From Pectobacterium actinidiae (GTDB taxonomy: Bacteria; Pseudomonadota; Gammaproteobacteria; Enterobacterales; Enterobacteriaceae): 64,000 bases of DNA. Shown piece by piece: positions 6,713 to 27,095 of the stretch (its first letter is position 1; every line of letters begins with the position of its first letter). Under the pieces are notes generated by a model. That model saw nothing but the letters and a program-made list of their open reading frames with translations, was not told the origin of the DNA and ran no database searches. The position numbers and the translations under genes were made by a program. Location: the NCBI RefSeq assembly GCF_000803315.1, contig NZ_JRMH01000001.1, forward strand, positions 1,612,001 to 1,676,000, in the 5' to 3' direction.

Positions 6713-7336
6713 ATGAGAACGCTTACCGAAGAGCGGAGAAAATCCATCATAGATGCAGCATCCAGTATTTTTCAGGAGATGGGGTACGAGCGGGCCTCTA
6801 TGAACGAAGTAGCAAAGCGAGTCGGGGGCTCGAAGGCTACTTTGTATAACTACTTCAATTCTAAAGAAGAACTATTTGAAACAGTTGTTCGTACTTACAG
6901 CACACGCTTTCTAAGCGAGGCAGCAAACGAATTACTTGATGCCAAAAATGCCAGTTTAACGCTGGAGCAAAAGCTCAATCGATTTGGAGAGCGTATGCTT
7001 CAGGTGCTTGCTGGTGATGATCAGGCTTTACAGATTTATCGGGTTGTCATTGGTGAAGCCGGGCATTCTGATATTGGCTCACTTTTCATTGAATCAGGTA
7101 TTAGTGAAAGTATGGGAACACTATCTATGGTTATGGCAGAAGCGATGAGCAAAGGAGAATTGATAGAAGGCGACCCTGTAATGAGAGCTGCTCAATTTAC
7201 CGCGTTGGTAAAAGCAGAGGCCGATGCAATGATTCTAAGACGTGATCTTCCTCGCTATACAACTGCGCAGATCAATCAGATGGCCCAAAAAGGTGTACAT
7301 TTATTTCTTTATGGAGCCCTTCCCCGTAATAGCTAA
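6713..7336 (+). CDS. TetR/AcrR-family transcriptional regulator
   Basis: A 207-residue protein of normal TetR length. The N-terminal helix-turn-helix (residues about 12–55: FQEMGYERASMNEVAKRVGG…SKATLYNYFNSKEELF) is canonical. The C-terminal part resembles the AefR/TetR_C ligand domain. I prefer the start MRTLTEERRK at 6,713; in-frame ATGs exist at 6,695 and 6,644. It stands directly upstream of two tiny lipoprotein genes whose promoter carries a perfect palindrome. Related palindromes precede three other island transcription units, so it is the best candidate for their common repressor. That is an inference from position and from the usual role of TetR proteins next to RND pumps. Confidence 0.9.
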   Translation: MRTLTEERRKSIIDAASSIFQEMGYERASMNEVAKRVGGSKATLYNYFNSKEELFETVVRTYSTRFLSEAANELLDAKNASLTLEQKLNRFGERMLQVLAGDDQALQIYRVVIGEAGHSDIGSLFIESGISESMGTLSMVMAEAMSKGELIEGDPVMRAAQFTALVKAEADAMILRRDLPRYTTAQINQMAQKGVHLFLYGALPRNS

Positions 7337-7470
7337 GATAAACATGCATTTTTACCTTACAGGAATCGACATATTTACATTTCGATTCCGTAAGATCTCG
7401 CTGAGTTTTAATCATTGCCATTCTGCTACATTCTCAGTTTTCTTAGCTACATCATCTGCAGTTCTTCAGG

Positions 7471-7517
7471 TTGACAATTACATTAAGGTAAGGTTAAACT
7501 AAACCGTACAGTTTAAC
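7471..7517 (+). promoter_or_regulatory. Promoter with perfect palindromic operator (site 1)
   Basis: TTGACA (7,471–7,476) is followed at 18 bases by TAAACT. Overlapping that −10 lies GTTAAACT–AAACCGTAC–AGTTTAAC (7,493–7,517), a perfect 8-bp inverted repeat. An operator on the −10 fits repression. The same half-sites recur at 13,038, 26,269 and 26,934. Confidence 0.72.
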
Positions 7518-7530
7518 TAAGGGGTGAATC

Positions 7531-7602
7531 ATGAAGAAATTAGCGATGATTGCAATGTTGTCGTCAGTCGTTCTTTTGTCAGGTTGCGTGTCTCTTTTCT
7601 GA
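7531..7602 (+). CDS. Micro-lipoprotein 1 (23-residue precursor)
   Basis: ATG at 7,531 with AGGGG seven bases upstream encodes MKKLAMIAMLSSVVLLSGC followed by four residues (VSLF). The sequence is a complete lipoprotein signal peptide: two lysines, a hydrophobic core, and the lipobox LSGC. After signal peptidase II cleavage only Cys-Val-Ser-Leu-Phe would remain, a lipidated pentapeptide. Strong Shine-Dalgarno, promoter and operator argue that it is a real gene. It resembles entericidin or bacteriocin-release lipoproteins in style but is much shorter. Function unknown. Confidence 0.65.
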   Translation: MKKLAMIAMLSSVVLLSGCVSLF

Positions 7603-7635
7603 TAAAGAGATCTTTCAAATACATCGGGAGAAGAT

Positions 7636-7716
7636 ATGAAGCTGCTTGCGCTAAGTTCTGTTATCGTGACTGTAATGTTAATAAGTGGTTGCTTATCTAT
7701 TGGAAGCCATCTTTAA
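7636..7716 (+). CDS. Micro-lipoprotein 2 (26-residue precursor)
   Basis: Thirty-three bases after the first micro-lipoprotein, ATG at 7,636 (GGGAGAAG upstream) opens a 26-residue frame. It has a lipoprotein signal and lipobox ISGC, leaving Cys-Leu-Ser-Ile-Gly-Ser-His-Leu, eight residues, after processing. The two peptides share the lysine start, hydrophobic core and SGC-hydrophobic-Ser pattern, so they look like a tandem pair from one transcript. A hairpin follows at 7,727. Function unknown; a membrane-acting or signalling lipopeptide pair is possible. Confidence 0.62.
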   Translation: MKLLALSSVIVTVMLISGCLSIGSHL

Positions 7717-7726
7717 GTAAAAATCA

Positions 7727-7821: not shown

Positions 7822-8433
7822 TCAGTAACTTACTTCGCAATATGACGATCCAGCCTCTATCCATTTTTTTGCCGTTTCTGAAATATTGATTGCAAGTCGA
7901 TTAACCAACTGCTGGGCTACAGGTACCACTTGCAGATAGTTTCCAGGTGCATTCTGGGTTAGCTGGCTCTGGCAAAGGATAAATTGTCTTTTGTCACCTT
8001 TTCTTGTTGAAAGGCTCCAGTCTGCCTCAAGACGTACTTGGTCCCCAGGCCAGAGGTCAAAACGCCGTATCTGTATCAGTATCCTCACCACTTGTTTTTC
8101 ATCAGCCTTCGATAAACCTGACACATCCTGAGTGCCTAAGCGCTGTGCGATCTCAGTTGAGAGGGCTGAATGCATTTCGTCCCCCAGAGTACTCAGCCAC
8201 CGGTCATTATTGAGCACCTGAATAGTGCTTTCACCCTGGCGCACCACTACTTGTTTCATATCCAGTTGAACCGGCACACCTACGGGCAGAAGTTCTATGG
8301 CAAAAGAAACTTTTTTTGCTTGGCTGGCTGAGGGAGCTGGTAGCACTAAAGTGTGGTACCTGATTTGTGGGGAAGAACAGCCACTTATCGCGAACAGCAG
8401 CACCAGCACCGAAACATACGACAGCAATTTCAT
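7822..8433 (-). CDS. pqiC: PqiC-like outer-membrane lipoprotein
   Basis: 203 residues with a lipoprotein signal (lipobox AISGC, Cys19), followed by the ABC-type transport auxiliary (DUF330/PqiC) domain: IRYHTLVLPAP, then VGVPVQLDMKQVVVR and WLSTLGDEMHSAL. In E. coli PqiC tethers the PqiB tunnel to the outer membrane. The start codon shares its A with the stop of pqiB (TAATG), so translation is coupled. It is the last gene of the operon and is followed by the hairpin at 7,727. Confidence 0.88.
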   Translation of the reverse strand: MKLLSYVSVLVLLFAISGCSSPQIRYHTLVLPAPSASQAKKVSFAIELLPVGVPVQLDMKQVVVRQGESTIQVLNNDRWLSTLGDEMHSALSTEIAQRLGTQDVSGLSKADEKQVVRILIQIRRFDLWPGDQVRLEADWSLSTRKGDKRQFILCQSQLTQNAPGNYLQVVPVAQQLVNRLAINISETAKKWIEAGSSYCEVSY

Positions 8434-10079
8434 TAGCGTTTACCTTGGTATGAATTAGCGGGGTTCACCGTGCTCTCAGGTACGGGGTCCACGGGTGTAC
8501 CCTGTAATAAGGATTCCGGATGACGGTCTAACTGATCTGAAAGACCGCGTAATGATTTGAGTGTTCTGCTGGTTTCCTGAAGTGTCTGCATGATATTGAT
8601 AATGAGGGGTGAGTCTTCAGCTATCAGGTCCTGAACACCTTCAGTAGTTTTTTGTGTCTGGCTCATCAGTCGGTTTGCCTCAGGCAGTGTCTGGCGGTTA
8701 ACCATCCGAAGAGTTTTACTGAGTTCTGCCAGTGTGGTGTCCAGATTGTTGCCGATTGACTCCAGGGGGAGTTTGTTGATTTTTGTGACGATCCCGGCTA
8801 CCTGCTCCTGAATTTTATCCAGTCCACCGCTGACGGTAGGCACCAGCAGAGGACGAGCAGTCAGGTCAAAAGGGACCTTAGGGGCGTCGGGTACAAAATC
8901 GAAAGTAATAAAAAGCTGACCTGTCAATAAACTGCTAGGAACCGCCTGCGCTCGTAAACCATGAGAGACAAGATCACGCACGAAAAGCGCAGCGATATGT
9001 TCAATGTCTTCCGATTCTGCCGGTTGGGGTAATTTTTTCAAAACTTGGCCAATGCGGGACGGATATACGTCAATCCCTACTATAGTGGGAAAACGATAGC
9101 CTGTCGGATTGTAATCGAGATCAATCGATGTCACACGTCCAATTACCACACTCGAGAATTGTACCGGAGCACCGACAGAAAGGCCGCGAAGAGAGCGCTC
9201 GAATCGCAATCTGAATGGAATGGCAGGACCATCTGGATGAGCCAGTGCGGTAGCCTCATCGGGGGCAAGTGAGTAACGGACGTTTTTATTATGAGGGTGA
9301 GGATCGCTGGTTGTGGCTGATGCAAATGCAACACCTCCGGCCAGCATGGCGGCAACCGTCTGCGTTTTCAGGCGGAATCCTTCAGTTCCCACAGAGAGGT
9401 CAATACCACTGACATTCCAGAAGCGTGTCTCGGACGTTACCAACCGGTCATAGGGCGCGTCTATGAAGACTTTAAGAATGACACCGACACCATCCTCCCT
9501 CAGATGGTAAGAGGCGACCCTGCCAACCTGAATCCGCCTGTAATAAACAGGTGAGCCGATATCAAGCGATCCCAAGTCTGCGGCTTCAATAATGAACTGG
9601 CTGCCTTGTACATCACTGATAATTGATGGAGGGATTTCAAGCCCAACGAATTCACGCCTACTTTCGGCTGATTTACCTCTGTCCATGCCAATATATGGCC
9701 CTGAAAGAATAGTATCGATGCCACTAACACCGCTTATTCCAACACGAGGCCTGACTACCCAAAAGCGTGTATCTTCCCGGATAAGACTTTCTGCACTCTT
9801 TGCTAATTGGACTCTCACAAGCACCGCCGAATTATCTGTGCTGAGAATAATTTCTTTAACTGTACCCACGGTGACGTCTTTATATTTAACTGTAGTTTTA
9901 CCTGCCTCAAGCCCTGCGGCACTACGAAAAGATATAGAGATCTCCGGTCCTTCAGCCAGTTTAGTCTGCAGCAACATAGAAAGGCCCGACAGCAGGGCAA
10001 TTACCGGCACAATCCATATAAGAACATTACGCCAGTTTTTTCGGGCAAACACAGGTTCACCACGTAGCGTTTGCTTCAT
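8433..10079 (-). CDS. pqiB: PqiB-like intermembrane transport protein with three MCE domains
   Basis: 548 residues, close to E. coli PqiB. One N-terminal membrane helix (about 17–37) is followed by three MCE repeats, starting near residues 47 (ISFRSAAGLEAGKTTVKYKD), 165 (GSPVYYRRIQVGRVASY) and 290 (RFERSLRGLSVGAPVQF). A long helical C-terminus would form the needle-like channel. Such proteins span the periplasm and move lipids or hydrophobic compounds between membranes. The start overlaps the preceding PqiA stop by four bases (ATGA). The island setting is unusual for pqi genes. Confidence 0.92.
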   Translation of the reverse strand: MKQTLRGEPVFARKNWRNVLIWIVPVIALLSGLSMLLQTKLAEGPEISISFRSAAGLEAGKTTVKYKDVTVGTVKEIILSTDNSAVLVRVQLAKSAESLIREDTRFWVVRPRVGISGVSGIDTILSGPYIGMDRGKSAESRREFVGLEIPPSIISDVQGSQFIIEAADLGSLDIGSPVYYRRIQVGRVASYHLREDGVGVILKVFIDAPYDRLVTSETRFWNVSGIDLSVGTEGFRLKTQTVAAMLAGGVAFASATTSDPHPHNKNVRYSLAPDEATALAHPDGPAIPFRLRFERSLRGLSVGAPVQFSSVVIGRVTSIDLDYNPTGYRFPTIVGIDVYPSRIGQVLKKLPQPAESEDIEHIAALFVRDLVSHGLRAQAVPSSLLTGQLFITFDFVPDAPKVPFDLTARPLLVPTVSGGLDKIQEQVAGIVTKINKLPLESIGNNLDTTLAELSKTLRMVNRQTLPEANRLMSQTQKTTEGVQDLIAEDSPLIINIMQTLQETSRTLKSLRGLSDQLDRHPESLLQGTPVDPVPESTVNPANSYQGKR

Positions 10080-10690
10080 TTATCACCTGCCCAGATTAGT
10101 CTAGGGTCAAAACTCAAGGCGGATAACATCGTCAGAAATACGACCAGTCCAAAAAAAAGAATCCCGGCGCGAGGCTCTGCTTCTCCCAGTGAATGGAACT
10201 GAATCAGCCCGCTGACTACAGCCACGACAATGACGTCCAGCATTGACCAGCAGCCAATCCATTCCGTAATGTGATAAAGCCGTGTTCTTTCACTTTGCGC
10301 CCACTGACTGCGGATCGCTGAACTTATCAGGAGTACAGCCATGGATAGAAATTTCATACAAGGAATTACCACACTTGCAATAAAAATAATTACGGCAATG
10401 CCGTATGAACCCGCATGCCAGAAATCCACGACTCCCTCCATAATCGTGCTTTCTTTTCCGCGGCCAAACAGACTGGTAAACATTACCGGCAAAACGTTGG
10501 CCGGGACGTAAACAATCACAGCGGCAATCAGCAGGGCCCAGGAGCGTCCGAGACTTTTTCTGTCAGGGAGACGTTGCCGAGTGTGGCAGCGGGGGCAACT
10601 TTGCATAGAGTCAGTTGCTGGCTGAAATACCAGGTGACAAAAATGGCAGCCAGTAACGCCAGCCTTACGAGCAGACAGAAGCCTACACAT
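10076..10690 (-). CDS. pqiA: PqiA-like membrane protein, second half (separate ORF)
   Basis: A 204-residue single PqiA domain. A zinc ribbon (CHFC…CPRC) is followed by about four membrane helices (SWALLIAAVIVYVPANVLPV, IAVIIFIASVVIP, and others) and the ending SFDPRLIWAGDK, which matches the E. coli PqiA terminus. I chose the ATG at 10,690 because it overlaps the previous stop (ATGTGTAG), a coupling arrangement. A longer frame from 10,747 is open. E. coli PqiA is one chain with two such domains; here they are two genes, either naturally split or separated by an old frameshift at the junction. Confidence 0.8.
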   Translation of the reverse strand: MCRLLSARKAGVTGCHFCHLVFQPATDSMQSCPRCHTRQRLPDRKSLGRSWALLIAAVIVYVPANVLPVMFTSLFGRGKESTIMEGVVDFWHAGSYGIAVIIFIASVVIPCMKFLSMAVLLISSAIRSQWAQSERTRLYHITEWIGCWSMLDVIVVAVVSGLIQFHSLGEAEPRAGILFFGLVVFLTMLSALSFDPRLIWAGDK

Positions 10691-11381
10691 GTTCGCTCTC
10701 TGCAAAAGGAACAATCGGGCAAAGAGTCCACAAGGACTGCAGGTCATGACTGGTCACTATAATGATGAGCACTACGGAAACTGCCAGTGCCCAACCACCG
10801 ATGCCGGGAGCCACTTCCAGCAGTGAAGATAGCTTAATCGCAGCAACCAGAAAGCCCAGCACACCTACTTCCACCATACTCCAGGGGCGTAGCCATACCA
10901 GCGTTTTCATCATGGCAATAAAACCCGGTGCCCGCTGTTTGAAATGAGCAAACACGAGTAGCCAGAGCATAAGTAAGATTTGCAAAAGAGGGGCGATAAT
11001 AAGCAGAAAGGTTGTCAACATTGCCATAAGTGGAAAGCTCTCCCCCTTTGCTAGCGCCCACACCGCCTGCCATAGGGTGATTTCATTTCTGACGCCATGG
11101 AAATTAACCATGATGACCGGATAGATGGACGCAAGTGAAAAAGTGATGAGTGCTGCCACGGTAAGAGGCAACACCAGATATATCCCCGCGCCACCGTTCT
11201 GCCAGAGTACTGAATGGCAGCGTTCACAACACGCTGTGCGGCCCAGTTGGTCTGAGCGATAACGGTACAGTGTGTTGCAAATCGGGCACACGATAAGATG
11301 ATGGTATATTTTCATGGATTTCATCAGCAGCGTTAAATTATATGGCGGCGCTGATGTGTTCAGTCCGCCGCCTTTTTTCAT
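10683..11381 (-). CDS. pqiA: PqiA-like membrane protein, first half (separate ORF)
   Basis: Up to 232 residues. It has a zinc ribbon (CPICNTLY…CCERC) and four membrane helices (IYLVLPLTVAALITFSLASI; LMAMLTTFLLIIAPLLQILL; and two more), with the motif EVGVLGFLVAAIKL typical of the PqiA N-terminal domain. The true start may be one of the downstream ATGs (MKSMKIYHH near 11,324 or MKIYHH near 11,315), which would bring the length near other PqiA halves. It ends at the overlap with the second half and works with PqiB and PqiC. It follows the MipA-like gene by 84 bases on the same strand. Confidence 0.8.
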   Translation of the reverse strand: MKKGGGLNTSAPPYNLTLLMKSMKIYHHLIVCPICNTLYRYRSDQLGRTACCERCHSVLWQNGGAGIYLVLPLTVAALITFSLASIYPVIMVNFHGVRNEITLWQAVWALAKGESFPLMAMLTTFLLIIAPLLQILLMLWLLVFAHFKQRAPGFIAMMKTLVWLRPWSMVEVGVLGFLVAAIKLSSLLEVAPGIGGWALAVSVVLIIIVTSHDLQSLWTLCPIVPFAESEHV

Positions 11382-11465: not shown

Positions 11466-12218
11466 TCAGAAGGTATAGCTAATGCCGGTGGATACTATGC
11501 CCACACCGTTTTTATCTATCATTGGACTTTTCTTCACTTCATCAGCAGTTATGTCATAACGGGCTGAGAAAAATGCTTTCCAGTCGTTGCTCATATGATA
11601 GTTAGCTGAAAGTACAATATAAGGCGTGAAGCTATCGTCAGGCGTATAAGACGGTAACCCACTGCGGCGTGATTCATCTATGCTTATGCCAGCGTAGTAA
11701 TTATTTTGGTCCTTATTGTCCCAGCGAACGCCTATTTCAGGTGTCAACTCCCAGTCCGTTAAGGCGAAAGGATACATATAGGAAGTGTTTGCAAACACTC
11801 CGTCGCTATTATTCAGCGCATCATGGGCTACAGAAGCGGTAAAATGGCCGAAATAAGTTCGCAAAGAATATTCAAGTCCGGTTGTAACTGTTGACCGTCG
11901 TTTGTCTAATCGTTGTATCTTCGAATCATTACTATCCTGCGGTCGGAATTGTCGGGGATCGTAGGCGGCGAAGACATCAAACTGATTTACTCTGTCTTTC
12001 AAGAGGTGAATACCTCCCTGCCCGCCATGGAAGAATAGAAAGTCACCTTCATAATCTACAAAGGGAAACGGAAACACCCGAGGGGGCGTTTCCTTGTAAG
12101 GGCTTTCTGCCACGCCAGCCATTAACCCAAGTGCTAGGTCATCTGAAACTGCCGGAGGAGACACAATAAGCGTGAGCCCTAAGGCCAGCCTCTGTTTGTT
12201 AGCAAATCCTGATGTCAT
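11466..12218 (-). CDS. MipA/OmpV-family outer-membrane protein
   Basis: 250 residues with a signal-like N-terminus, then alternating beta-strand sequence ending in an aromatic residue (GIVSTGISYTF), as outer-membrane barrels do. Motifs such as PFPFVDYEGDFLFF, EYSLRTYFGHF and SFTPYIVLSANYHMSNDWKAFFSARYDI are typical of the MipA/OmpV family. The start at 12,218 is fixed by GGGGGAG eight bases upstream; a longer frame exists. It sits 40 bases after the DUF3313 gene and before the pqi genes. A role as an outer-membrane scaffold or pore for the Pqi system is an inference. Confidence 0.85.
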   Translation of the reverse strand: MTSGFANKQRLALGLTLIVSPPAVSDDLALGLMAGVAESPYKETPPRVFPFPFVDYEGDFLFFHGGQGGIHLLKDRVNQFDVFAAYDPRQFRPQDSNDSKIQRLDKRRSTVTTGLEYSLRTYFGHFTASVAHDALNNSDGVFANTSYMYPFALTDWELTPEIGVRWDNKDQNNYYAGISIDESRRSGLPSYTPDDSFTPYIVLSANYHMSNDWKAFFSARYDITADEVKKSPMIDKNGVGIVSTGISYTF

Positions 12219-12258
12219 GTTTTTGTCTCCCCCGAAGATACCTTTGAGCGTATGGCTG

Positions 12259-12921
12259 CTATTGAAGTATTTCCGCCAGCTCATCTGCACCCTTATCAAT
12301 GCCTACTTCTGCTGCACTGAGGGAGCCGATAGTGGCGGAGATATTCATGGCGTTCGGGTACTGTTTTGCTACATAGGCATGCAACAGCTTGTTTGTTGAG
12401 GTGTCATAAATTTCGACCGCATAGTTTACATAACCACTCAGCATGCCCTGTCCTCCTCGGATGGACTGAACGATATTGTACGGCCCCCCGGCAAGATCAA
12501 ATTTAGTAAAAGTTCCCACGAACTGAGTCGTTGTATCTGCCCCTGTTAGTGTCAGCTTCAGGCGTAAAGTTGATGGTGAAGGAGATCCTCCTTCACGAAA
12601 ACGCGGGCGTAACTTCTCTGCAAATTTCTCCTGCATGTAACTGGCCAGTTTCTGACGATCTGATTGCTCCATATCACCAAACTGATTGTCTGGACCCTGA
12701 TAAATAATTACCGGGTCAATAATGAGGCTGTTATATTTTTTCCAGTCGATCTGAGGTCCATAACGGAAGGGGATACGATCAGACTCGGCTCCAGTGTTGG
12801 GGGTCAATTGTGAGGATGAGTCGAGGCCAGAATAACGGACGGGATCATCACTCGCGCAACCAGCGAGCAAAGCTACCGCAGCCAAAAGTGTCAGGCGTAT
12901 TGCCCGTGAGAATGTAATCAT
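12259..12921 (-). CDS. DUF3313-family lipoprotein
   Basis: 220 residues. A lipoprotein signal (lipobox LLAGC, Cys22) is followed by a DUF3313-type domain: WKKYNSLIIDPVIIYQGPDN, FGDMEQSDRQKLASYMQEKF, TLRLKLTLTGADTTT and a glycine-rich C-terminal part. The start ATG has AAGGAA upstream. It is the first gene of the six-gene operon leading to pqiC, and a palindrome related to site 1 lies about 120 bases upstream. The molecular function of DUF3313 proteins is not established. Confidence 0.82.
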   Translation of the reverse strand: MITFSRAIRLTLLAAVALLAGCASDDPVRYSGLDSSSQLTPNTGAESDRIPFRYGPQIDWKKYNSLIIDPVIIYQGPDNQFGDMEQSDRQKLASYMQEKFAEKLRPRFREGGSPSPSTLRLKLTLTGADTTTQFVGTFTKFDLAGGPYNIVQSIRGGQGMLSGYVNYAVEIYDTSTNKLLHAYVAKQYPNAMNISATIGSLSAAEVGIDKGADELAEILQ

Positions 12922-14274
12922 CTGAAGTTCCTTTAGTTAAATGCGTCTATAAATCAGTCTGTTATCTGGGCCGTCAGTAGCAAGGAAAGCTAGACTCATT
13001 TCAAAATCTCATTGAAGAAATGATTTAACCTATGACTAAACTGTACAGGCTAGTTTTGATCCACTACGATTGCTATGTCAAGGAAATGTTTCGTGATCTA
13101 AATTTTTGTTTAGGGTTGTAATTTATGGGGGGAAAGGAATTCTTGGTCGTGAAATGTGCACGGCTTCTCGATGATGCGGCTAGATTTTCTATCCATCAGG
13201 ATGTGATGCATTGTATTTACGGTTGCTTGCCAGTCTTATGAACTGCCCGCAGAAATTAATCAGCTATTATCTTTCGAGATCATTAAGCGCATCATGATGG
13301 AAATTATCTGAATTTATGGTTATAAGCATCTCTGAAGAGCAGTAACCTTTAAGTGCTCGCCTAGAACGAAGTTGATGCGTTTTGCAGATACCATTGCAGT
13401 TGTTTTTGAGAGAAGATGAAAAGTTGATTGTATTTTTCGGGGTAAATTAAGGGATATCGCCCAGTACCGGCAGAAGTGCGGATTGCGGTTGGCTTAGGAA
13501 AGACTCACAGATGCTATTGATAAGCCGATACAAAAAAGGGATATACTTACCTTTTATCAATATATTTTTATGTAACTGTGAATGATTTCATTGGGAAACA
13601 TCTGATTATACAGGAAAATAAAAGTTTAGTTTCTATCAGACTAGATAATCTGCAGGCTTTTTTTTCATGCACAACAGCATGAAAGTAAGAAATTATATTT
13701 AACATATAATTAACCATCCATCAATCAAATTGGTTTAGTAACTATTGTTATTTAATGATGGAGAGGTTTTGGGGATTGAAAATATTATCAGCGACAGTGG
13801 TAGTGGAACCTTTCGACTGATATGCATCTGTTAAAAAGAAAAATCAATGACAGGCGCACTGCATGAGTTTGTTTTTTTACCCCTGATTTCTTTCTGTAAG
13901 TATTAGCTGAAGCTTAAAGTATAAATCTTTACATAATCATATCTCTCGAGTGAGCTTTGCTTTATTTTAATTTGAGCTTACGTCATAGGCTCAAAGCACG
14001 CAAACGTAATAGTTAAGAATGATTTGATCCTGTTTGGAAGGGTAATAATAAAACAGATGTGGCATTATTTTTAGAACAAAGCGGGCAAGTACACTGTAGA
14101 AGCTTGCACTTTTCATTAAGTAGTTATATTTTACCAATGAATAGATGTGCCTCTGAATGCATATCTATTTACTGGGTGGTTTCAACGTTGCAAGTGCGAA
14201 AATGTTGCACCAGTGAAATTTTATTATTCCAATTTCAGCTACTGTATTTTTACATAGCCACCCATTATTTAATG
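12922..14274. other. Long AT-rich gene-poor stretch
   Basis: Apart from the site-2 promoter at its left end I see no supportable gene in about 1.35 kb. An open frame at 14,059–14,400 overlaps the end of the SDR gene and has no family resemblance or ribosome binding site. The stretch may hold eroded DNA or untranslated RNA; neither can be shown from the sequence alone. Confidence 0.5.
13038..13081 (-). promoter_or_regulatory. Promoter with palindromic operator (site 2) for the DUF3313–mipA–pqi operon
   Basis: On the minus strand TTGACA (13,081–13,076) precedes AAACTAGCCTGTACAGTTTA with the same spacing (19 bases to AAACTA) as at site 1. The operator arms AAACT and AGTTT enclose nine bases that include TGTAC. 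Shared spacing and half-sites suggest the same regulator acts here. Confidence 0.65.
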
Positions 14275-15030: not shown

Positions 15031-15112
15031 CATAGCTCCTTTCGTATGAACCCGACATTCGTCACTTTTGCTCTTAATGGAATGCCGGGCACTGTTGATC
15101 TGTACTAATCCC

Positions 15113-16033: not shown

Positions 16034-16143
16034 AAAGTTCACCTTCTTGAATAATTACCTGTTTGATAGAAATGTTGCTCAAAACAACAATTAAGTGTAG
16101 GTAGGTAGTAACGCTGGAACAAGACAACAATATCAACTATAGT

Positions 16144-16160
16144 GTCAATTTGAATTTGAC
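16144..16160. promoter_or_regulatory. Palindrome between hydrolase and LysR genes
   Basis: GTCAA–N7–TTGAC lies 15 bases before the LysR start. It is a plausible LysR binding or autoregulation site in the 140-base divergent promoter region. The assignment rests only on symmetry and position. Confidence 0.4.
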
Positions 16161-16174
16161 AATAGGATGAGGTT

Positions 16175-17451: not shown

Positions 17452-17574
17452 TCCGTTCTGCTATAGCAGATTCTTACTGATCGATAGCGATATATTTATG
17501 ATCACTCTTTTTGTGGGGCGCTAACTTAATTGCGTTTCTACAAATATATTCCCTTGCGAGGAAAAGAGGGTGTC

Positions 17575-18795: not shown

Positions 18796-18812
18796 TTCAC
18801 GAGGTAACCTGA

Positions 18813-20822
18813 ATGTCTTATCTATATTACGGAGTCGCTTATTACGATGAATATATGCCGGAAGACCGCCTTGCAAAGGATATCTCACTGATGATTGAAA
18901 CTGGCATTAATGTGGTTCGCATTGCAGAATCTACCTGGAGTACCCTAGAACCTAAGGAAGGTGAATTCAACTTTTACCATATCGACCGTGTTCTTGACGC
19001 TATGCATGGTGCTGGGATTTCCGTAATCATTGGTACACCCACTTATGCAGTTCCAGCTTGGCTCGCAGCTAAGCATCCGGATATTCTGGTGACCACTATA
19101 GAAGGACATCAGAAATATGGCCCGCGACAGATTATGGATATTGTTAACCCCACTTTCCGCCTTTATGCGGAAAGGATTATTCGTGCGCTACTGGAGCACG
19201 TACAGCATCATCCGGCAATTATTGGTTGGCAGTTGGATAACGAAACAAAGCATTATGGCAACGTAGGGCACCATATGCAGAAGGGTTTCATATATAGCCT
19301 GAAGGAAAAATACGCAAGCCTTGATAGGCTAAATTACGATTTTGGCCTCGACTATTGGAGCAACCGTATTGACAACTGGGATGATTTCCCGTCAGTTGAG
19401 AAGACTATTAACGCCAGCCTTGCTTGCGCGTTTTCCCGCTATCAGCGCCAGCAAGTAACGGATTATCTTGCATGGCAGGCCGGGCTCGTTAGGGAGTACG
19501 CGAAACCGCATCAGTTCGTTACCCATAACTTCGACTTTGAATGGCGTGGTTATTCTTTCGGCCTGCAACCGAGTGTTGATCATTTTACGGCCTCGCAGGT
19601 ACTGGATATCGCCGGAGTTGATATTTATCACCCTAGCCAAAAAAATTTGACAGGTCGAGAGATAGCATTTGGAGGCGCCATTTCTCGCGCACTTAAAATG
19701 GGGAAAAATTATTTCGTGCTTGAAACACAAGCTCAGGGCTTTGCGCAGTGGACACCTTTCCCTGGCCAGCTACGACTTCAGGCTTTCAGTCACATTGCTT
19801 CCGGTGCCGCAATGGTTTCATACTGGCATTGGCACTCCATTCATAATTCCTATGAAACGTACTGGAAAGGTCTGCTGAGCCATGACTTCTCGCGTAATGC
19901 AACTTGGCAGGAGGCCACGACGATAGGTGCAGATTTTGCACGATTATCACCAAAACTTATCGGGCTGAGGGCAGTTAATGATGTCGCCATTCTCATTAGC
20001 AATGAAGCCATGGATGCACTCAATCAATTCCGGCCGGGGGATGAGCAAGGAAATGTTTATAATGATATTTTTCGTCGCTTCCATGATGCCATGTACGACC
20101 ACAACATTGGTCTAGATATCATTAACGATGTGAACGAAGGAACAATGCGATATAAGGCGATAATTATACCCGGCCTCTATGCCGCTGATGACGGTCTCCT
20201 TACGCGCATTAATCACTATATTGAACAGGGGGGACGAGCCTTAATTGGCTTTAAATCCGGATTTAGCAACGAGCACGTTAAAGTGCGCAGTAGTACGCAG
20301 CCAGGCATTCTGTATCAGGCCTGTGGGGTAAGTTATAACCAATTTACCTTACCGAATGATGTTCAAGTTACTGCTTGCATCCCGACACTTAACTGCCGTG
20401 AGCACAATAAAGTGGAATTGTGGATGGAATTACTGACCCCGGCACCAGAGACTCGCATGTTACTACGCTATCAACACCCTGAATGGAATTCATATGCGGC
20501 GGCAACTGAGGCAGACTATGGAAAAGGCCGTGCGTTATACGTCGGGTTTCTTCCGCATAAAAAGCTGATTAGTCAGTTGTTTAACAAGCTTACTAATGGG
20601 TTAAAATTGACATCACACACCTCGAGTAATACCTATCCACTAATTACCAGAACGATGAGCAACAGTGATGGCAACCTTATCCATTTCTTGTTTAACTATA
20701 GCGGCGACGCGTGTGACACCACAGCGGAAACAGAGGGCATTGATCTTTTGAGCGGTGAAAAAGTATTCTGTGGCGAACCATTGCGCCTCAATAGTTGGGG
20801 TCTTCGTATCATAGAGAGCTAA
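18813..20822 (+). CDS. Glycoside hydrolase family 42 beta-galactosidase
   Basis: 669 residues, normal for GH42. The N-terminal TIM barrel starts at YYGVAYYDEYMPEDRLAKDI. The general acid/base glutamate lies in IIGWQLDNETKHYG (near residue 143) and the nucleophile in YFVLETQAQGFAQW (near residue 308). A trimerisation domain (about 390–590) and a short C-terminal beta domain follow. There is no signal peptide, so it acts in the cytoplasm on sugars brought in by the upstream symporter. An AraC regulator follows 29 bases later. Natural substrates in soft-rot bacteria would be plant galactosides; this is an inference. Confidence 0.92.
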   Translation: MSYLYYGVAYYDEYMPEDRLAKDISLMIETGINVVRIAESTWSTLEPKEGEFNFYHIDRVLDAMHGAGISVIIGTPTYAVPAWLAAKHPDILVTTIEGHQKYGPRQIMDIVNPTFRLYAERIIRALLEHVQHHPAIIGWQLDNETKHYGNVGHHMQKGFIYSLKEKYASLDRLNYDFGLDYWSNRIDNWDDFPSVEKTINASLACAFSRYQRQQVTDYLAWQAGLVREYAKPHQFVTHNFDFEWRGYSFGLQPSVDHFTASQVLDIAGVDIYHPSQKNLTGREIAFGGAISRALKMGKNYFVLETQAQGFAQWTPFPGQLRLQAFSHIASGAAMVSYWHWHSIHNSYETYWKGLLSHDFSRNATWQEATTIGADFARLSPKLIGLRAVNDVAILISNEAMDALNQFRPGDEQGNVYNDIFRRFHDAMYDHNIGLDIINDVNEGTMRYKAIIIPGLYAADDGLLTRINHYIEQGGRALIGFKSGFSNEHVKVRSSTQPGILYQACGVSYNQFTLPNDVQVTACIPTLNCREHNKVELWMELLTPAPETRMLLRYQHPEWNSYAAATEADYGKGRALYVGFLPHKKLISQLFNKLTNGLKLTSHTSSNTYPLITRTMSNSDGNLIHFLFNYSGDACDTTAETEGIDLLSGEKVFCGEPLRLNSWGLRIIES

Positions 20823-20851
20823 AGGCAACAACTTATCCTAGCGGAGGGTAT

Positions 20852-21724
20852 ATGGAACTGGATATTCACGAACTTTTACATTCTTCACCATTGTTCAAGA
20901 CCTTTACCTTCAACGCCTGGATGGTGGCGGGCTTTACGCCGATTACTCGGGGTTCAAAACTAGACTACTACATTAACCGACCGCAAGGAATGAAAGGCTA
21001 TATCATCAACCTAACGCAGCGTGGTCAGGCTAGGGCAAGAGCTGGAACGGGGTCGCTGCTATTTCGTGAAAACGATCTGCTGCTTTTCCCACCCGGTGTG
21101 CCTCACCACTACGGGCGTGATGAAAATAGCGAGCACTGGGATCATCTATGGATTTACTTTATTCCACGCCCTTATTGGGTTAACTGGTTAAAGTGGGATA
21201 ACACCACTTATGGCATCGGTAAAACCACAGTGATGGATCAGCAGCAACTTAAAATTCTTCAAGATCTCTTTTACGCTGTGATTCTCGAACATAATGCTAC
21301 GGCACCACTCTCCGAAGCACTAGCTATGAATGCACTGGAACGGCTTATTTTAAACTGTTTCCAGTTGCAGCCAATTGGCAACCAACACATACACGATCCG
21401 CGAATAAAAGTTATCTGCGAGTATCTGGATGAAAATATAGCTCAGGAAATTAAAATTGAAACGCTTGCATCAATGGTTTTCCTTTCTCCCTCGCGTCTTG
21501 CGCATCTATTCAAACATGAAGTGGGGCAAACTATTTATGCTTGGAGAGAGATGCAGAGGATTAATCGGGCAAAGTGGCTGGTGCAAACTACTACATTGCC
21601 CTTCAACAAAGTGGCGCTGTCAGTAGGATACAGCGATCCGGTCTATTTTACACGAATCTTTCGTAAACATAATGGCATCGCACCGGGAGCATATCGTAAG
21701 CACTATTCGACAATGAGAGGATAA
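20852..21724 (+). CDS. AraC-family transcriptional regulator
   Basis: 290 residues. The N-terminal cupin-like sugar-sensing domain (GYIINLTQRGQARARAG, then LLLFPPGVPHHYGR) precedes two C-terminal helix-turn-helix motifs (IETLASMVFLSPSRLAHLFK and NKVALSVGYSDPVYFTRIFRK). The start at 20,852 has GGAGG seven bases upstream. It is the third gene of the symporter–GH42 unit and presumably activates it in response to the sugar. Overall layout resembles E. coli AraC, including the DPVYFTRIF ending. Confidence 0.9.
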   Translation: MELDIHELLHSSPLFKTFTFNAWMVAGFTPITRGSKLDYYINRPQGMKGYIINLTQRGQARARAGTGSLLFRENDLLLFPPGVPHHYGRDENSEHWDHLWIYFIPRPYWVNWLKWDNTTYGIGKTTVMDQQQLKILQDLFYAVILEHNATAPLSEALAMNALERLILNCFQLQPIGNQHIHDPRIKVICEYLDENIAQEIKIETLASMVFLSPSRLAHLFKHEVGQTIYAWREMQRINRAKWLVQTTTLPFNKVALSVGYSDPVYFTRIFRKHNGIAPGAYRKHYSTMRG

Positions 21725-21831: not shown

Positions 21832-24800
21832 CTAATAATTGTTATGGGTATTTCCGAAAGCGCGGGCTACGCTTCTGACAATCACGAAAAACAAAGGCAC
21901 AAAAAATATCGCAAGCAACGTAGCAGCAAGGGTGCCACCGATTATACCGGTCCCAATTGCGATACGGCTATTAGCTCCAGCACCAGTGGCTATAGCCAGT
22001 GGTACCACACCAGCGATAAAGGCAAGTGATGTCATCAAAATGGGACGCAGGCGAGTACGGGCCGCCTCAACAGTCGCAGCAGCAAGGGGACGACCATTTC
22101 TGACAGATGCTTCAGCAAATTCAACTATCAAAATGGCATTCTTGGATGAGAGACCTATGGTGGTGAGTAGTGCAACCTGAAAATAAATATCGTTGTTCAG
22201 ACCCCTCAGCGATGCGGCGATAATCGCTCCCAGAAGTCCAAGCGGGATCACCATGATGACAGAGAAGGGCACCGACCAGCTTTCATAGAGTGCCGCAAGA
22301 CAGAGAAAGACAACCAGTATGGACAGAGCATACAGGCTGAATGCCTGTCCGCTGGCCAGTTTTTCCTGAAGGGAAAGTGCACTCCAGGCCCAGGTTGTAC
22401 CCGGAGGAAGGTTATTGGCGAGTGCCTCCATTTTCTGCATTGCATCTCCTGAGCTGAATCCTTCAGCACTGTCTCCCTGTATTTCGAAGGCGGCCGAACC
22501 ATTGTATCGTGCAAGACTCTCCGGTCCCCAGGTCCAGCGGGCAGTGGCAATAGAGGCAAAAGGCGTCATTGCTCCATCCTCTCCCCGTACGAACCATTTG
22601 TCTAAGTCCGATGGCTTTGACCGGAATTCACCATCACCTTGAATGTATACCCGCTTCACGCGTCCCCGATCGATGAAATCGTTAACATAACTCCCTCCCC
22701 ATGCAGCGGAGAGCGTGGTGGTAACATCACTAATCGGCAGGCCCAGCGCGACCGCTTTATCGTTATCTATGTCGATCTGTAACTGTGATGTTTCCGGCAA
22801 GACATTGGCCCGGATTGAGCGAAGTTCCTGACTCTGGTTTGCATCATCTATCAACTGGTCACGAAGTGACATCAAGGTACTGCGGTCTGTTGAACCGCTG
22901 GCCATCAGCTCAAAAGTGAACCCGCTGCTTTGACCAAGTCCCTGAACAGAGGGGGGGATGAGTGCAAAAATACGGGCATCGCGGATAGGAAATAACTGCT
23001 GTGTTGCCCGAAGTGAGACGGCTTCGGCAGAGTTTTCTCTGCCTTCACGCTGATCCCAGTGTTTAAGTTTGACGAACGCCATCCCGGCATTCTGAGCACT
23101 TCCGGTGTAATTAAATCCTGTGATGGTAAAAATGACTTCAGTATTGTCCTTTTCCTTGTCAAGGAACCAGGAGGTGATCTGGTCATTGACAGCATTTGTC
23201 CGGCTGGCGGTTGCGCCTGACGGGAGTGATACCTGCAGCATAACTTCCCCCTGGTCTTCGTTAGGGAGGAAACTGCCGGGAAGGCGCCACATCAGCAGAC
23301 CCATAACAACTCCCATTGCGCCATAGACCAGCATTAACGTGAGGGGGCGACGAATAACCTGGAGTACTTTGTGGCAGTAGCGACGCTCTGTATTGCCATA
23401 GAAACGATTGAAAGCACCAAAAAATCCTTTATCACGGGGGGGACTGTGATGAAGCAGCGTGCCGCATAATGCAGGGGTGAGCGTCAATGCAACGACGACA
23501 GATAGTGTCATTGCAGAAATAATCGTGACTGAGAATTGTCGGTAAATGACGCCTGTGGCACCACCAAAAAATGCCATCGGCAGAAATACTGCGGACAGTA
23601 CGAGAGCAATGGCTATCAGCGCACCGGAAATTTCGCTCATCGATTTTTCGGTCGCTTCTTTAGCAGATAGCCCCTCATCACGCATTATGCGCTCTACGTT
23701 CTCCACGACCACAATAGCATCGTCGACAAGTAGTCCAATAGCCAGCACCATCGCAAACAGCGTCAGCGTATTGATGGAGTAGCCAAACAAGGACAACACG
23801 GCAAATGTTCCAAGCAGTACCACTGGGACGGCCAGTGCAGGTATGAGTGTCGCGCGCAGGTTTTGCAAAAACAGGTACATCACAGCCACGACCAGCACGA
23901 TGGCTTCGACCAATGTTTTGACGACATCCTGAACGGACAGTCTGATAAACTCAGTACTATCCTTTGGATAGGCCACATCATATCCTGCAGGCATACTGCG
24001 CTGAAATTCGGCAATCTTTTCCTTTACTCTCAGAGATGTATCGAGCGCATTCGCTCCCGGTGCCAGCATCACAGCAATACCAGCAGAAGGATGCCCGTTC
24101 AATTTTGCGGACATACTGTAAGATTCACTCCCCAGTTCTATACGGGCTACGTCGCCAAGCCTAACAATGGCACCTGTGCTGTCATGTTTGAGGATAATGT
24201 TGCTGAACTGTTCGGGGGTCTGCAGACGGGATTGTGCCCTCACAGTAGCCGTAAGTTGTTGCCTGTCAGAAGAGGGGAGTCCGCCAATTTTACCGGCGGA
24301 AATCTGAATGTTTTGCGCCCGAATTGCATTGGCCACATCTCCGGGCATCAGGGAAAAAGATGCCAGTTTTATAGGGTCAAGCCAGATCCGCATTGCATAT
24401 TCACCCCCGAAAATTAGCAGATCACCCACACCATCCACTCTGGCTAAAGGATCTCGCAAGTTGCTGACGAGCCAATCGCCAATATCTGCACTGGTCGATG
24501 CATCGGTTTTGTCGTACAGCGCCATGATAAGTAAATAGTTTGACTGAGCTTTAGTGACAGTAACACCAGCCTGCTGGACTTCGGTGGGAAGACGGGATTC
24601 TGCTTGCTGAATTTTATTCTGCACCTGTACCTGTGCTGTGTCAGGATCGGTTCCCTGTGCAAATGTGACAGTAATGCTCACTGTCCCTTCAGATGAACTG
24701 CTGGAATTAAAATAAAGCAGGTTATCGAGTCCGGTTAGCTGTTGCTCAATTACCTGTGTCACACTGTTTTCCAGTGTCTGGGCTGATGCGCCGGAGTAAT

Positions 24801-24945
24801 TTGCTGTTATTCTCACTGAAGGCGGAGCAACATCAGGATATTGCGCCACTGGTAGTGTGCGAAGTGCCAGTAATCCAGTCAGCATGATAAGAATTGATAT
24901 TACCCAGGCAAAGACTGGTCGTCTTACAAAGAAACGAGAGAACAT
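21832..24945 (-). CDS. RND multidrug efflux transporter, AcrB/HAE1 family
   Basis: 1,037 residues, the full length for the family. N-terminal MFSRFFVRRPVFAWVISILI and the paired aspartates of helix 4 (AIGLLVDDAIVVVENVERIM) are diagnostic of proton-driven hydrophobe/amphiphile exporters. The large porter loops lie at about 40–330 and 560–870. The start ATG shares an A with the stop of the adaptor gene (TGATG). No outer-membrane channel gene is present, so it probably uses the chromosomal TolC. Substrates cannot be read from the sequence. Confidence 0.93.
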   Translation of the reverse strand: MFSRFFVRRPVFAWVISILIMLTGLLALRTLPVAQYPDVAPPSVRITANYSGASAQTLENSVTQVIEQQLTGLDNLLYFNSSSSSEGTVSITVTFAQGTDPDTAQVQVQNKIQQAESRLPTEVQQAGVTVTKAQSNYLLIMALYDKTDASTSADIGDWLVSNLRDPLARVDGVGDLLIFGGEYAMRIWLDPIKLASFSLMPGDVANAIRAQNIQISAGKIGGLPSSDRQQLTATVRAQSRLQTPEQFSNIILKHDSTGAIVRLGDVARIELGSESYSMSAKLNGHPSAGIAVMLAPGANALDTSLRVKEKIAEFQRSMPAGYDVAYPKDSTEFIRLSVQDVVKTLVEAIVLVVAVMYLFLQNLRATLIPALAVPVVLLGTFAVLSLFGYSINTLTLFAMVLAIGLLVDDAIVVVENVERIMRDEGLSAKEATEKSMSEISGALIAIALVLSAVFLPMAFFGGATGVIYRQFSVTIISAMTLSVVVALTLTPALCGTLLHHSPPRDKGFFGAFNRFYGNTERRYCHKVLQVIRRPLTLMLVYGAMGVVMGLLMWRLPGSFLPNEDQGEVMLQVSLPSGATASRTNAVNDQITSWFLDKEKDNTEVIFTITGFNYTGSAQNAGMAFVKLKHWDQREGRENSAEAVSLRATQQLFPIRDARIFALIPPSVQGLGQSSGFTFELMASGSTDRSTLMSLRDQLIDDANQSQELRSIRANVLPETSQLQIDIDNDKAVALGLPISDVTTTLSAAWGGSYVNDFIDRGRVKRVYIQGDGEFRSKPSDLDKWFVRGEDGAMTPFASIATARWTWGPESLARYNGSAAFEIQGDSAEGFSSGDAMQKMEALANNLPPGTTWAWSALSLQEKLASGQAFSLYALSILVVFLCLAALYESWSVPFSVIMVIPLGLLGAIIAASLRGLNNDIYFQVALLTTIGLSSKNAILIVEFAEASVRNGRPLAAATVEAARTRLRPILMTSLAFIAGVVPLAIATGAGANSRIAIGTGIIGGTLAATLLAIFFVPLFFVIVRSVARAFGNTHNNY

Positions 24946-26066
24946 CAGGAGTTACCTCCCGGTTGCTTAACTTCAACAGGCCGAACGCTTTGTCCTGGGC
25001 TCGCTTTATCCGTTCCCTCAATAATCAACCGATCGCCGTGCTTAAGCCCTTTAAGTACAAGCCAGTTGTCACCTTCGGCATTGCCCGTTTCCACTTGCCG
25101 TCTTTCAACACTATTATCCTCAGTAACGACCAGTGCTGAAGCATTACCTTTTACATCCCGGGCAATACCCTGCTGTGGCGCAAGTATGGCATTTTCAAGG
25201 ATACCTTCATTGATTCTGGCACGGACATACATACCCGGAAGCAGCAGATGCTGCGGGTTAGGGAAAATAGCCCGCAGAATAACAGAACCTGTTGACTCGT
25301 TAACTGCAAGTTCAGTTAGTTGGAGATGACCTTTTTCCGGATATACACTGCCATCTTCCAGAATCAGTGAAACGCTAAGGCTTTCTCCATTCGAAGATAG
25401 CGCTTGTTGACGAAGACGTAATAAGTCGCGGCTTGAACGTGTAACATCAACATATATGATATCGATCGCTCGAATGGTTGTCAGTGCTGTTTCCTGTTGC
25501 GCAGTAACTAGTGCACCAGGTGTTACAGAGGAAATTCCAATCCGTCCATTAATGGGTGCAGATACAGTGGTCCATTCCAGCTGTATGCGAGCACTTTCCA
25601 GCAACGCTGTTTTTTCTGACACACTAGCCCGTGCTTGCTCACAGGTTGCACGGGCATTATCTAGATCCTGACGGGCGATGTTATGTGTGTTTGCCAGTTC
25701 TGTATAGCGACGGGCTTTGGCGCAGTCAGCCAGCATAAGTGCCTGCACATTCTTAAGGGATGCAGTTGCCTGATTAAAAGATGCGCGGTAACTGGCGGAA
25801 TCAATTTGATACAAGGGCTGTCCGGCTTTGACATCGTCACCTTCATTGAAAAGGCGCTTTTGGATTATCCCCCCCACCTGTGGACGAACCTCGGCGGTTG
25901 TGGAGGAAACAGTTCGTCCGGGCAATTCGCTGATGACAGAATAAATTTGAGCATTGAGGGTTGTCACTCCCACTTCAATTGGTGGACTACTTTGTGTTTG
26001 CGGTTGCTTATTGTCGCATCCGTAAAGTCCCGCGATTGCCATGATGGAAATGATTTTCAGATACAT
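24945..26066 (-). CDS. RND periplasmic adaptor (AcrA family) lipoprotein
   Basis: 373 residues with a lipoprotein signal (lipobox GLYGC, Cys16), as in AcrA. Order of parts: barrel-sandwich half (VRPQVGGIIQKRLFNEGDDV), a helical hairpin around residues 90–165, the second lipoyl half (TVSAPINGRIGISSVTPGAL), beta-barrel and membrane-proximal domain (IEGTDKASPGQSVRPVEV). It is translationally coupled to the RND pump. Its 5' region contains a palindrome related to the island operators about 200 bases upstream. Confidence 0.92.
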   Translation of the reverse strand: MYLKIISIMAIAGLYGCDNKQPQTQSSPPIEVGVTTLNAQIYSVISELPGRTVSSTTAEVRPQVGGIIQKRLFNEGDDVKAGQPLYQIDSASYRASFNQATASLKNVQALMLADCAKARRYTELANTHNIARQDLDNARATCEQARASVSEKTALLESARIQLEWTTVSAPINGRIGISSVTPGALVTAQQETALTTIRAIDIIYVDVTRSSRDLLRLRQQALSSNGESLSVSLILEDGSVYPEKGHLQLTELAVNESTGSVILRAIFPNPQHLLLPGMYVRARINEGILENAILAPQQGIARDVKGNASALVVTEDNSVERRQVETGNAEGDNWLVLKGLKHGDRLIIEGTDKASPGQSVRPVEVKQPGGNS

Positions 26067-26537
26067 AATATTATCCAGAAGTTGAATTAACTAAACTTCC
26101 TCATTTTTCATGAGGTTAAGTGATGTTCAGTTTCGAAAACTGGTTGATAGACAGTTAAAGCAGCTAAGCGCATCTGATTCTTTTCATCAACTGCAGCTTA
26201 AGAAACGTATGATGAATCGGGATAATTCGTTCATTTTGATTACGAAACTAGGGTGCCATACCTTTCTTATACAGTACGGTTTAGTTTTGTGGAAGTCTCG
26301 GTATTGGTTAATGATTCATTCTTTCAAAGGGGGAAGGTCGTGTATCAAAATTTCGTCTATCACCAACATATGAGCCTAAAACCTGACGAAAACTATACTT
26401 ATCAAGGTATTAACTTCTTTATTTTTAAAGGAACCATAGTTTGGTTCTGAAACTTCTGTAGCATTGCTGCCAGATCTCATTGTTTTGACTTTGTTTTAGA
26501 AACCGAGTTCAATCCCATCCATGGGAAATGGTAGTTT
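26067..26537. other. Promoter region of the RND operon
   Basis: No supportable gene. An 87-codon plus-strand frame (26,110–26,373) has no recognisable family and overlaps the likely promoter. Contains operator site 3. Confidence 0.5.
26269..26288 (-). promoter_or_regulatory. Operator-like site 3 upstream of the RND operon
   Basis: On the minus strand the bases read AAAACTAAACCGTACTGTAT. The first 15 (AAAACTAAACCGTAC) match site 1 at 14 positions, starting from its AAACT. The right arm is weaker. A TTAACC-like −35 lies about 18 bases before AAACTA, the same geometry as sites 1 and 2. A leader of about 200 bases separates it from the adaptor gene. Confidence 0.55.
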
Positions 26538-26783
26538 CTACCAAGCTCGTCTTTCCCGAGCCCTATCCTTTTCCATCTGCTGAACTCTCTCCACATCGCG
26601 GGCACGTTCTATCTCACGATTTCGTTCCCGGTTGCGTATACGATCGATTTCACGTTGCCGATCCGCTTCAAGAACCTGAGACTCATATCGTCGTTCCCCT
26701 CGACGATCATAATCATCATGAGGCACGCAACCGCTTATTGAGCATACTGATAGGAAAAATGATAACGGTAAAAATTTTTTCAT
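26538..26783 (-). CDS. Small charged lipoprotein
   Basis: 81 residues from ATG 26,783 (GAAGGCG upstream). A lipoprotein signal (lipobox SISGC, Cys19) is followed by a highly charged tail dominated by Arg, Glu and Asp in near-repeats such as REIDRIRNRERNREIERARD, predicted to be one long polar helix. I do not recognise a family. It sits just upstream of the RND operon on the same strand, with its own operator-like palindrome at 26,934, so a role in envelope stress or pump assembly is possible. Confidence 0.7.
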   Translation of the reverse strand: MKKFLPLSFFLSVCSISGCVPHDDYDRRGERRYESQVLEADRQREIDRIRNRERNREIERARDVERVQQMEKDRARERRAW

Positions 26784-27095
26784 GATTTCGCCTTCATTCA
26801 TCAAACGTTCTCGTTGGAAGCAAATTGATGCTTACCTAAACCGACACAAAAACTCACCATTAAGAAACTCCACTTGCTAAAAATTTAAAGCTTGGCAGCT
26901 GCTTAGTGTGTTGGAGCCCAATGCAATTCAAATAACTGTACCGTACGGTTATGCTGAGGGCAATGTTATTTTTCCGTATTCATCTATAACGCACAAAGCG
27001 AATTACGATTAGAGATTTATTTTTGTAAAAAAGATCAACACTTTCAGCAAAAAGTAGTTATGCAGTTTTGACTTTTGTTAAAGGTGTATGCTTAA
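26784..27095. other. Intergenic region with operator site 4
   Basis: About 310 bases between the charged lipoprotein and the integrase stop. Beyond the palindrome at 26,934 I see no gene or RNA signature. Confidence 0.5.
26934..26950 (-). promoter_or_regulatory. Operator-like site 4 upstream of the charged lipoprotein
   Basis: AACCGTACGGTACAGTT on the minus strand. It combines the ACCGTAC and GTACAGTT pieces of site 1 in compressed form, centred on the palindrome ACCGTACGGT. TTGCCC and TACAGT at 17-base spacing could be its −35 and −10. Confidence 0.5.

Follow-up and report, generated by a model that had tools for sequence, protein, structure and literature searches.

In Pseudomonas, the TetR-family regulator AefR represses the resistance-nodulation-division (RND) efflux pump operon mexEF-oprN and is released from it by flavonoids (PMC11915855). 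PmeR of P. syringae is a TetR repressor of its own gene and of an RND operon, with two overlapping palindromic sites (PMC12421961). E. coli encodes PqiA, the MCE protein PqiB and the lipoprotein PqiC in one operon, and the transport mechanism, regulation and directionality of this system are called enigmatic in a study of PqiC (PMC10897342). In P. aeruginosa, the barrel protein MipA and its lipoprotein partner MipB are tied to RND pump output under polymyxin stress (PMC10936184). Here we analyze a stretch of 64,000 nucleotides of the Pectobacterium actinidiae genome (contig NZ_JRMH01000001.1, positions 1,612,001 to 1,676,000), referred to as the window. As judged from operator sites and their conservation, an island in the window very probably carries a one-component TetR stress regulon that includes the tetR promoter itself, two micro-lipoprotein genes, a DUF3313-Pqi unit and an RND pump.

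The island resembles each of the described systems only in part. Its TetR belongs to the same Pfam C-terminal family as the repressor AefR, but the two are only distantly related in sequence (PDB AefR 3cdl, E 1.8e-14), and Pqi, DUF3313 or micro-lipoprotein targets are not mentioned for AefR in the available portion of its description (PMC11915855). The overlapping palindromes described for PmeR recall the double matches, shifted by 5 bp, at TetR loci in this analysis. PqiA, an MCE protein and a PqiC-type lipoprotein stand together as in E. coli; in contrast to E. coli, PqiA is encoded as two half-length genes, DUF3313 and MipA are added, the set would be under TetR, and its proteins score below the NCBIfam cut-offs for PqiA, PqiB and PqiC. 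MipA-MipB differs in being controlled by ParRS and in the beta-lactamase fold of MipB, which is not a DUF3313 protein (PMC10936184). The regulon brings known parts (TetR, Pqi and RND) together in a new combination, and the micro-lipoprotein pair matched nothing in the searches run. A literature search of open-licence papers returned none in which this regulon or these peptides could be recognised, and a search for the strings CVSLF and CLSIGSHL returned only unrelated matter.

A shared operator and its probable TetR regulator

An earlier note on this DNA proposed that four palindromes place scattered envelope genes under one switch, with the TetR encoded beside the first palindrome as the regulator. 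All four palindromes lie where they were described (sites 1 to 4; Table 1). A TTGACA hexamer stands exactly 23 nucleotides before the core at both site 1 and site 2, and site 3 has only a poor hexamer at that spacing, as the note had said. The genes named there (TetR, PqiC, PqiB, two PqiA, MipA, DUF3313, RND adaptor and permease, integrase) agree with Pfam, and the targets appear envelope-related, with the same kinds of target recurring beside the operator in other genomes. A further site in the promoter of tetR, site 0, can be added to the four; it has four mismatches to the ideal palindrome. The proposed regulon was right in substance and is larger than described; the joint response to a membrane-active compound that the note adds is a hypothesis.

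Judged by sequence, the shared operator is real, but only once its full 24-bp context is scored. The palindrome TAAACCGTACNGTTTA, at up to three mismatches, occurs eight times in the window; 100 shuffles averaged 1.15 and never reached eight. Six of these matches are both strands of sites 1 to 3, one is site 0 (6676), and one, at 4604, is unexplained. At up to two mismatches, the 16-mer was found at 25 places summed over 17 related genomes versus 16 for its control. The 19-mer AACTAAACCGTACAGTTTA, at up to three mismatches, gave six rows at five places in the whole genome and none for the reversed control. All five places precede regulon genes; sites 0 and 4 are not captured by this search. 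A 24-bp profile was trained on 14 sites, all from other genomes, that had been picked for likeness to the window-derived palindrome, so that its results are out-of-sample but not blind to the motif. This profile ranks sites 1, 3, 2 and 4 as the top four in the window and site 0 as the fifth, followed by an overlapping register of site 4 (12.5) and then by an independent row at 9.8. Genome-wide, scores were obtained for the 15 of the 20 places of the 16-mer for which loci were at hand; these were 21.7 to 31.1 at the four regulon places and at most 15.9 at the rest. Two of the rest were considered as further targets and set aside: L062 (15.9) sits at the 3' end of a coding frame, and L064 (14.9) lies inside a frame of 488 residues. 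The segment 4604-4619 in the window, a three-mismatch match to the palindrome with a profile score of 9.8, has no evident target.

The link between operator and TetR was tested in reverse with a profile built from five sites of this genome only, three from the window and two from the chromosome. It was applied to the 300 bp upstream of tetR at 79 of 80 TetR-homologue loci in named genomes (L140 was left out). At 75 of the 79, the upstream site scored above the 99th percentile of 2678 random 300-bp segments from the same loci. These homologues, with 33-73% identity, belong to Enterobacterales, Pseudomonas, Vibrio, betaproteobacteria and others. At many loci the best match is doubled, 5 bp apart, as GTACNGTAC repeats. 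Together with the operator in its own promoter, these results support the TetR beside site 1 as the probable regulator. Its helix-turn-helix (HTH) is intact in the homologue alignment, and it scores 61 bits for TetR_N (cut-off 24) and 57.2 bits for TetR_C_7 (cut-off 22). Among NCBIfam equivalogs (AcrR, BetI, FadR and others), 21 models matched and none reached its cut-off. The closest plasmid relative (70.6% identity; L182, a plasmid of Pantoea sp. At-9b) lies near pagP, not Pqi genes, with the operator before tetR only, and the tetR copy of genome G337 (L053:10022-10627) is interrupted by one stop codon.

The target genes recur with this regulator. In genome G370, DUF3313-MipA-PqiA-PqiA-PqiB-PqiC, both micro-lipoproteins, TetR and the adaptor-RND genes form one block; the adaptor and permease are 71% and 83% identical to those of the island, and the operator and TTGACA precede the adaptor (L172). 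A conjugative plasmid of Klebsiella pneumoniae carries TetR, both micro-lipoproteins and PqiC-PqiB-PqiA-PqiA-DUF3313, with an alpha/beta hydrolase, a short-chain dehydrogenase/reductase (SDR) and a LysR regulator nearby, as in the window. In the betaproteobacteria Rhodoferax, Variovorax and Curvibacter (L113, L116, L119), TetR is divergent from the adaptor-RND genes and the operator lies between them. DUF3313 was found within 12 of 20 TetR loci of 20 kb and at 19 of 38 listed named loci, two sets that overlap in species.

Several observations weigh against the TetR regulon. The palindromic 16-mer at up to three mismatches shows no excess genome-wide, with 20 places versus 23 for the reversed control. 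The earlier note had named a motif equally frequent at random as evidence against its proposal; this is what was found for the 16-mer at that tolerance, but not for the longer motif, in either its 19-mer or its 24-bp form. The best 24-bp score per shuffle averaged 10.9 in 60 shuffles, and the highest was 19.6, above the 17.2 of site 0; the case for site 0 therefore depends both on where it lies and on how it scores. The center of site 0 is degenerate, and site 3 lacks a good -35 hexamer. The 79 loci of the reverse test are not independent, as they include several species of one genus and close relatives, and many TetR relatives have no Pqi or lipoprotein genes. Finally, inspection of the sequence at site 4 found no TTGACA at the right spacing and no clear promoter, and the gene downstream of it had no homologue in 20 TetR-homologue loci or in 38 listed named loci.

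The evidence at site 4 allows a narrower regulon, consisting only of the tetR, micro-lipoprotein, DUF3313-Pqi and RND units, with site 4 as a by-standing or relic operator near the end of the island. The absence of a conserved gene or promoter at site 4 agrees with this. However, the site scores close to sites 2 and 3, and it resembles variants that stand before tetR elsewhere, for example at L046:9195. We regard the two possibilities for site 4 as evenly balanced.

The probable TetR regulon of the island does not stand alone in this genome. An operator place at 1.546 Mb precedes a chromosomal DUF3313-PqiA-PqiA-PqiB-PqiC set, with a second TetR convergent at its far end (L008). Another, at 3.705 Mb, lies 23 nucleotides past a TTGACA and before two tiny open reading frames (ORFs) that form a second micro-lipoprotein pair (L003). 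None of this chromosomal set, comprising Pqi genes, micro-lipoproteins with the same operator and a TetR, was part of the earlier account. The second TetR (L008:2020-2640) is 51% identical to the island TetR, and their HTH segments are identical at 17 of 19 residues. The DNA-reading helix being nearly identical, the two TetRs probably cross-regulate. An alternative is that the operator serves chiefly the chromosomal TetR, with the island adding targets to an existing circuit and its own TetR being a partner or a decaying copy. The likeness of the two proteins, the same operator in both target sets and the degenerate site in the island tetR promoter are in keeping with this. We consider it unlikely, as the island TetR has kept its HTH, and its type travels with the micro-lipoproteins, Pqi and RND genes in other genomes and plasmids.

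The predicted micro-lipoprotein pair

The unit behind site 1 encodes two predicted micro-lipoproteins, which read MKKLAMIAMLSSVVLLSG-CVSLF and MKLLALSSVIVTVMLISG-CLSIGSHL. The pair is present at 13 distinct loci on islands, chromosomes and plasmids. These are in this island and the chromosome of the same genome, in Brenneria roseae, Pantoea coffeiphila, Pantoea sp. RIT-PI-b and four further genomes, and on plasmids of K. pneumoniae, K. michiganensis, Erwinia billingiae and Pantoea agglomerans. TTGACA or TTGACT stands 17-23 nucleotides before the operator core at all 13. A lipoprotein signature is predicted from the sequence in all 13 first ORFs and in 12 of the 13 second ones, with a positively charged start, a hydrophobic stretch and a lipobox ending in Cys.

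The predicted mature end of the first peptide is exactly C-V-S-L-F at every one of the 13 loci. The 15 nucleotides that code for it occur in 12 versions, and all differences are synonymous. This comparison located the first peptide by its CVSLF end; a pattern left free at three positions still returned CVSLF in all 28 rows (overlapping loci included), and six places found through the second peptide alone also carry a CVSLF first peptide. The second peptide ends in CLSIGSHL or CLSIGSHI, at times with a few extra residues, at eight of the 13 loci, and in CLTIGSHI, CLSIGGHL, CLSIGSNI or CLSINSHI at four. At L053 (genome G337) the second ORF lacks the lipobox Cys, and the first retains CVSLF and the operator. 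Across nine loci, mean identity over the 14 residues ahead of the Cys is 37% and 38% in the two peptides, versus 100% and 88% for the mature ends. The signal peptides have diverged; what selection preserves seems to be mature lipopeptides about 5 and 8 residues long.

The two ORFs might instead yield no lipopeptides, acting as a leader or small RNA or making the signal peptide itself the product. Their length of only 23-26 codons, their status as predictions and the missing Cys at L053 would agree with such a role. Nevertheless, neither an RNA nor a signal-peptide product would fit the synonymous-only changes and the identity of the mature ends, and we hold this quite improbable.

A search of 392 genomes of the family with the second-peptide pattern found six places in five genomes and none for the reversed control. 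All five genomes also hold this TetR, and the pattern is absent from four other genomes of the genus of the window. Among 369 genomes of the class, three extra matches had no in-frame signal peptide in any case and were taken as chance. Gene finders skip ORFs this short, and the lipopeptides would therefore be missed in ordinary annotation. Neither micro-ORF is listed in four plasmid gene tables, which are themselves incomplete.

Small lipoproteins of the entericidin and bacteriocin-release kind have a mature part of some 20-50 residues. The entericidin-like Atu8019 is likewise a very small envelope lipoprotein, but its mature part has 32 residues as opposed to about 5 and 8 here (PMC7296081). 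By this length, the pair would fall outside the entericidin and bacteriocin-release class. The mature ends, nearly unchanged across many bacteria, point to an undescribed kind of membrane peptide.

Envelope genes on a tRNA-Asn island

The features of the locus are listed in Table 1. The Pqi (MCE) set is complete, with PqiA, the MCE protein and the PqiC-type lipoprotein together, all above their Pfam cut-offs. Against the E. coli-type NCBIfam models, PqiB reached 380 bits (cut-off 525), PqiC 29.8 (cut-off 200) and the first PqiA half 59 (cut-off 562). The permease is of the HAE1 type (TIGR00915, 1506.9 bits, cut-off 940.35), and the window ORFs submitted to Pfam yielded no outer-membrane channel gene. 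The charged lipoprotein at 26538-26783 had no Pfam or PHROG match.

The DUF3313 sequence had no match among solved structures up to E 0.01. An AlphaFold2 model from 32 sequences (mean pLDDT 77.3, residues 134-155 poorly modelled) matched PelC best (E 7.3e-6, TM 0.54 on the target) and, more weakly, HpaA, TraT, a DUF330 (PqiC-type) protein and CsgG. These are small outer-membrane lipoproteins, several of them ring-forming. The matches offer a lead, at low TM-scores, that DUF3313 may be a second ring-type lipoprotein beside PqiC.

Other genes adjoin these units. An SDR, an alpha/beta hydrolase and a divergent LysR gene (14275-17092) adjoin the DUF3313 unit; compared with the neighbors of the K. 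pneumoniae plasmid module, the hydrolases are 42-62% and LysR 32% identical. Between the Pqi block and the RND genes, which adjoin each other in G370, the island has genes for a LacY-type symporter, a GH42 beta-galactosidase and an AraC regulator (17530-21724).

By their sequence, the repeats at the two ends mark a mobile tRNA-Asn island of about 24 kb, which was absent from the earlier note. The left repeat matches the right one exactly, and none is expected in shuffles. The region has the features of a tRNA-borne island, namely an integrase adjoining a tRNA whose end is repeated on the far side. The integrase gene is 88.7-89.3% identical at the DNA level to E. coli integrase genes, two of them with tRNA-Asn among the matches listed. 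The GC fraction is 0.59 over the 20 kb that precede the window and drops to 0.43-0.48 within the island. In two of four genomes of the same genus, the tRNA-Asn flank runs into sequence like 4035-4248, and another integrase-like stretch also aligns there. The first 4200 nucleotides of the window are perhaps a remnant of another island, 4035-4248 being like the integrase-side sequence of relatives. No ORF of at least 120 residues starts before 4896.

Table 1. Features of the island and its putative regulon, in window positions
Feature	Position	Strand	Basis or remark
Left 20-bp repeat of tRNA-Asn 3' end (att-like)	4229..4248		Exact match to 28510-28529
Operator site 0, in tetR promoter	6676..6691		Profile 17.2; 21 nt before tetR start codon
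TetR-family regulator, AefR-like C-terminal domain (TetR_C_7)	6713..7336	+	Pfam; start chosen from homologue alignment
TTGACA, -35-like hexamer of micro-lipoprotein promoter	7471..7476	+
Operator site 1	7500..7515		Profile 29.9, best in window
Micro-lipoprotein A	7531..7602	+	23 codons; predicted mature end CVSLF
Micro-lipoprotein B	7636..7716	+	26 codons; predicted mature end CLSIGSHL
PqiC-like lipoprotein (ABC_trans_aux)	7822..8433	-	Pfam 110.5 bits
PqiB-like MCE protein	8433..10079	-	Pfam MlaD, three MCE stretches
PqiA half, second	10076..10747	-	Pfam PqiA 163.4 bits
PqiA half, first	10683..11381	-	Pfam PqiA 118.4 bits
MipA/OmpV-like outer-membrane barrel protein	11466..12299	-	Pfam MipA 146.7 bits; start uncertain
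DUF3313 lipoprotein	12259..12921	-	Pfam DUF3313 185.4 bits
Operator site 2	13037..13052		Profile 21.2
TTGACA, -35-like hexamer of DUF3313-Pqi operon	13076..13081	-
RND efflux permease	21832..24945	-	Pfam ACR_tran 1200.7 bits; two NCBIfam subfamily models above cut-off
RND periplasmic adaptor	24945..26066	-	NCBIfam RND_mfp 255.7 bits, cut-off 94.9
Operator site 3, upstream of RND adaptor gene	26268..26283		Profile 21.7
Short charged lipoprotein; regulon membership uncertain	26538..26783	-	Translation: very charged tail
Operator site 4; target uncertain	26937..26952		Profile 20.5
Tyrosine-type integrase of island	27096..28352	-	Pfam
Right 20-bp repeat, overlapping 3' end of tRNA-Asn (28514-28589)	28510..28529

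Proposed regulation and significance

That the palindromes are chance AT-rich sequence and their clustering a reader's pattern is almost certainly wrong: the frequency of the 16-mer agrees with it, but the longer motif sets the sites apart from other matches and is found again at orthologous places, and the held-out test at the 79 loci disfavours it.

The sites, their positions, conservation and paralogy can be read in the DNA itself. From them we infer binding, repression, the ligand class, lipidation and every function in the model that follows. The TetR would bind an operator of 16-24 bp around TAAACCGTACGGTTTA in its own promoter. It would also bind the promoters of the two micro-lipoproteins, of the DUF3313-MipA-PqiA-PqiA-PqiB-PqiC operon and of the RND adaptor-permease genes. 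At the first two of these units the operator lies next to or across the -10 region expected 17 nucleotides past TTGACA, which makes simple repression the natural reading; bound TetR would block RNA polymerase there. The same operator precedes the paralogous chromosomal targets. A small amphipathic or aromatic ligand would release the repressor. As AefR, of the same C-terminal family, is released by flavonoids, a plant phenolic or similar amphipathic compound is in our view the likeliest inducer, a suggestion by analogy that we hold with more doubt than belief. Relatives found in the searches include many plant-associated genera, which fits such an inducer and does not prove it.

On induction, the RND pump would export the compound, and Pqi, DUF3313 and MipA would move or repair envelope lipids. 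The envelope would at the same time be loaded with the two lipopeptides. We propose tentatively, at somewhat less than even confidence, that the two peptides represent a new class of conserved lipopeptides made by ribosomes in Gram-negative bacteria. Cleavage by signal peptidase II would leave acylated CVSLF and CLSIGSHL or CLSIGSHI in the envelope, only on TetR induction. Mature ends as fixed as these speak for a specific partner, likeliest the DUF3313/PqiC ring lipoproteins, MipA or the Pqi channel, which would recognise the lipopeptides as a signal, cargo tag or channel plug in envelope repair. The lipopeptides would rank among the smallest conserved gene products known. The repressor-operator pair, occurring on islands, chromosomes and plasmids, appears to tie a Pqi system to an efflux pump, and it may provide a handle on the natural signal of Pqi.

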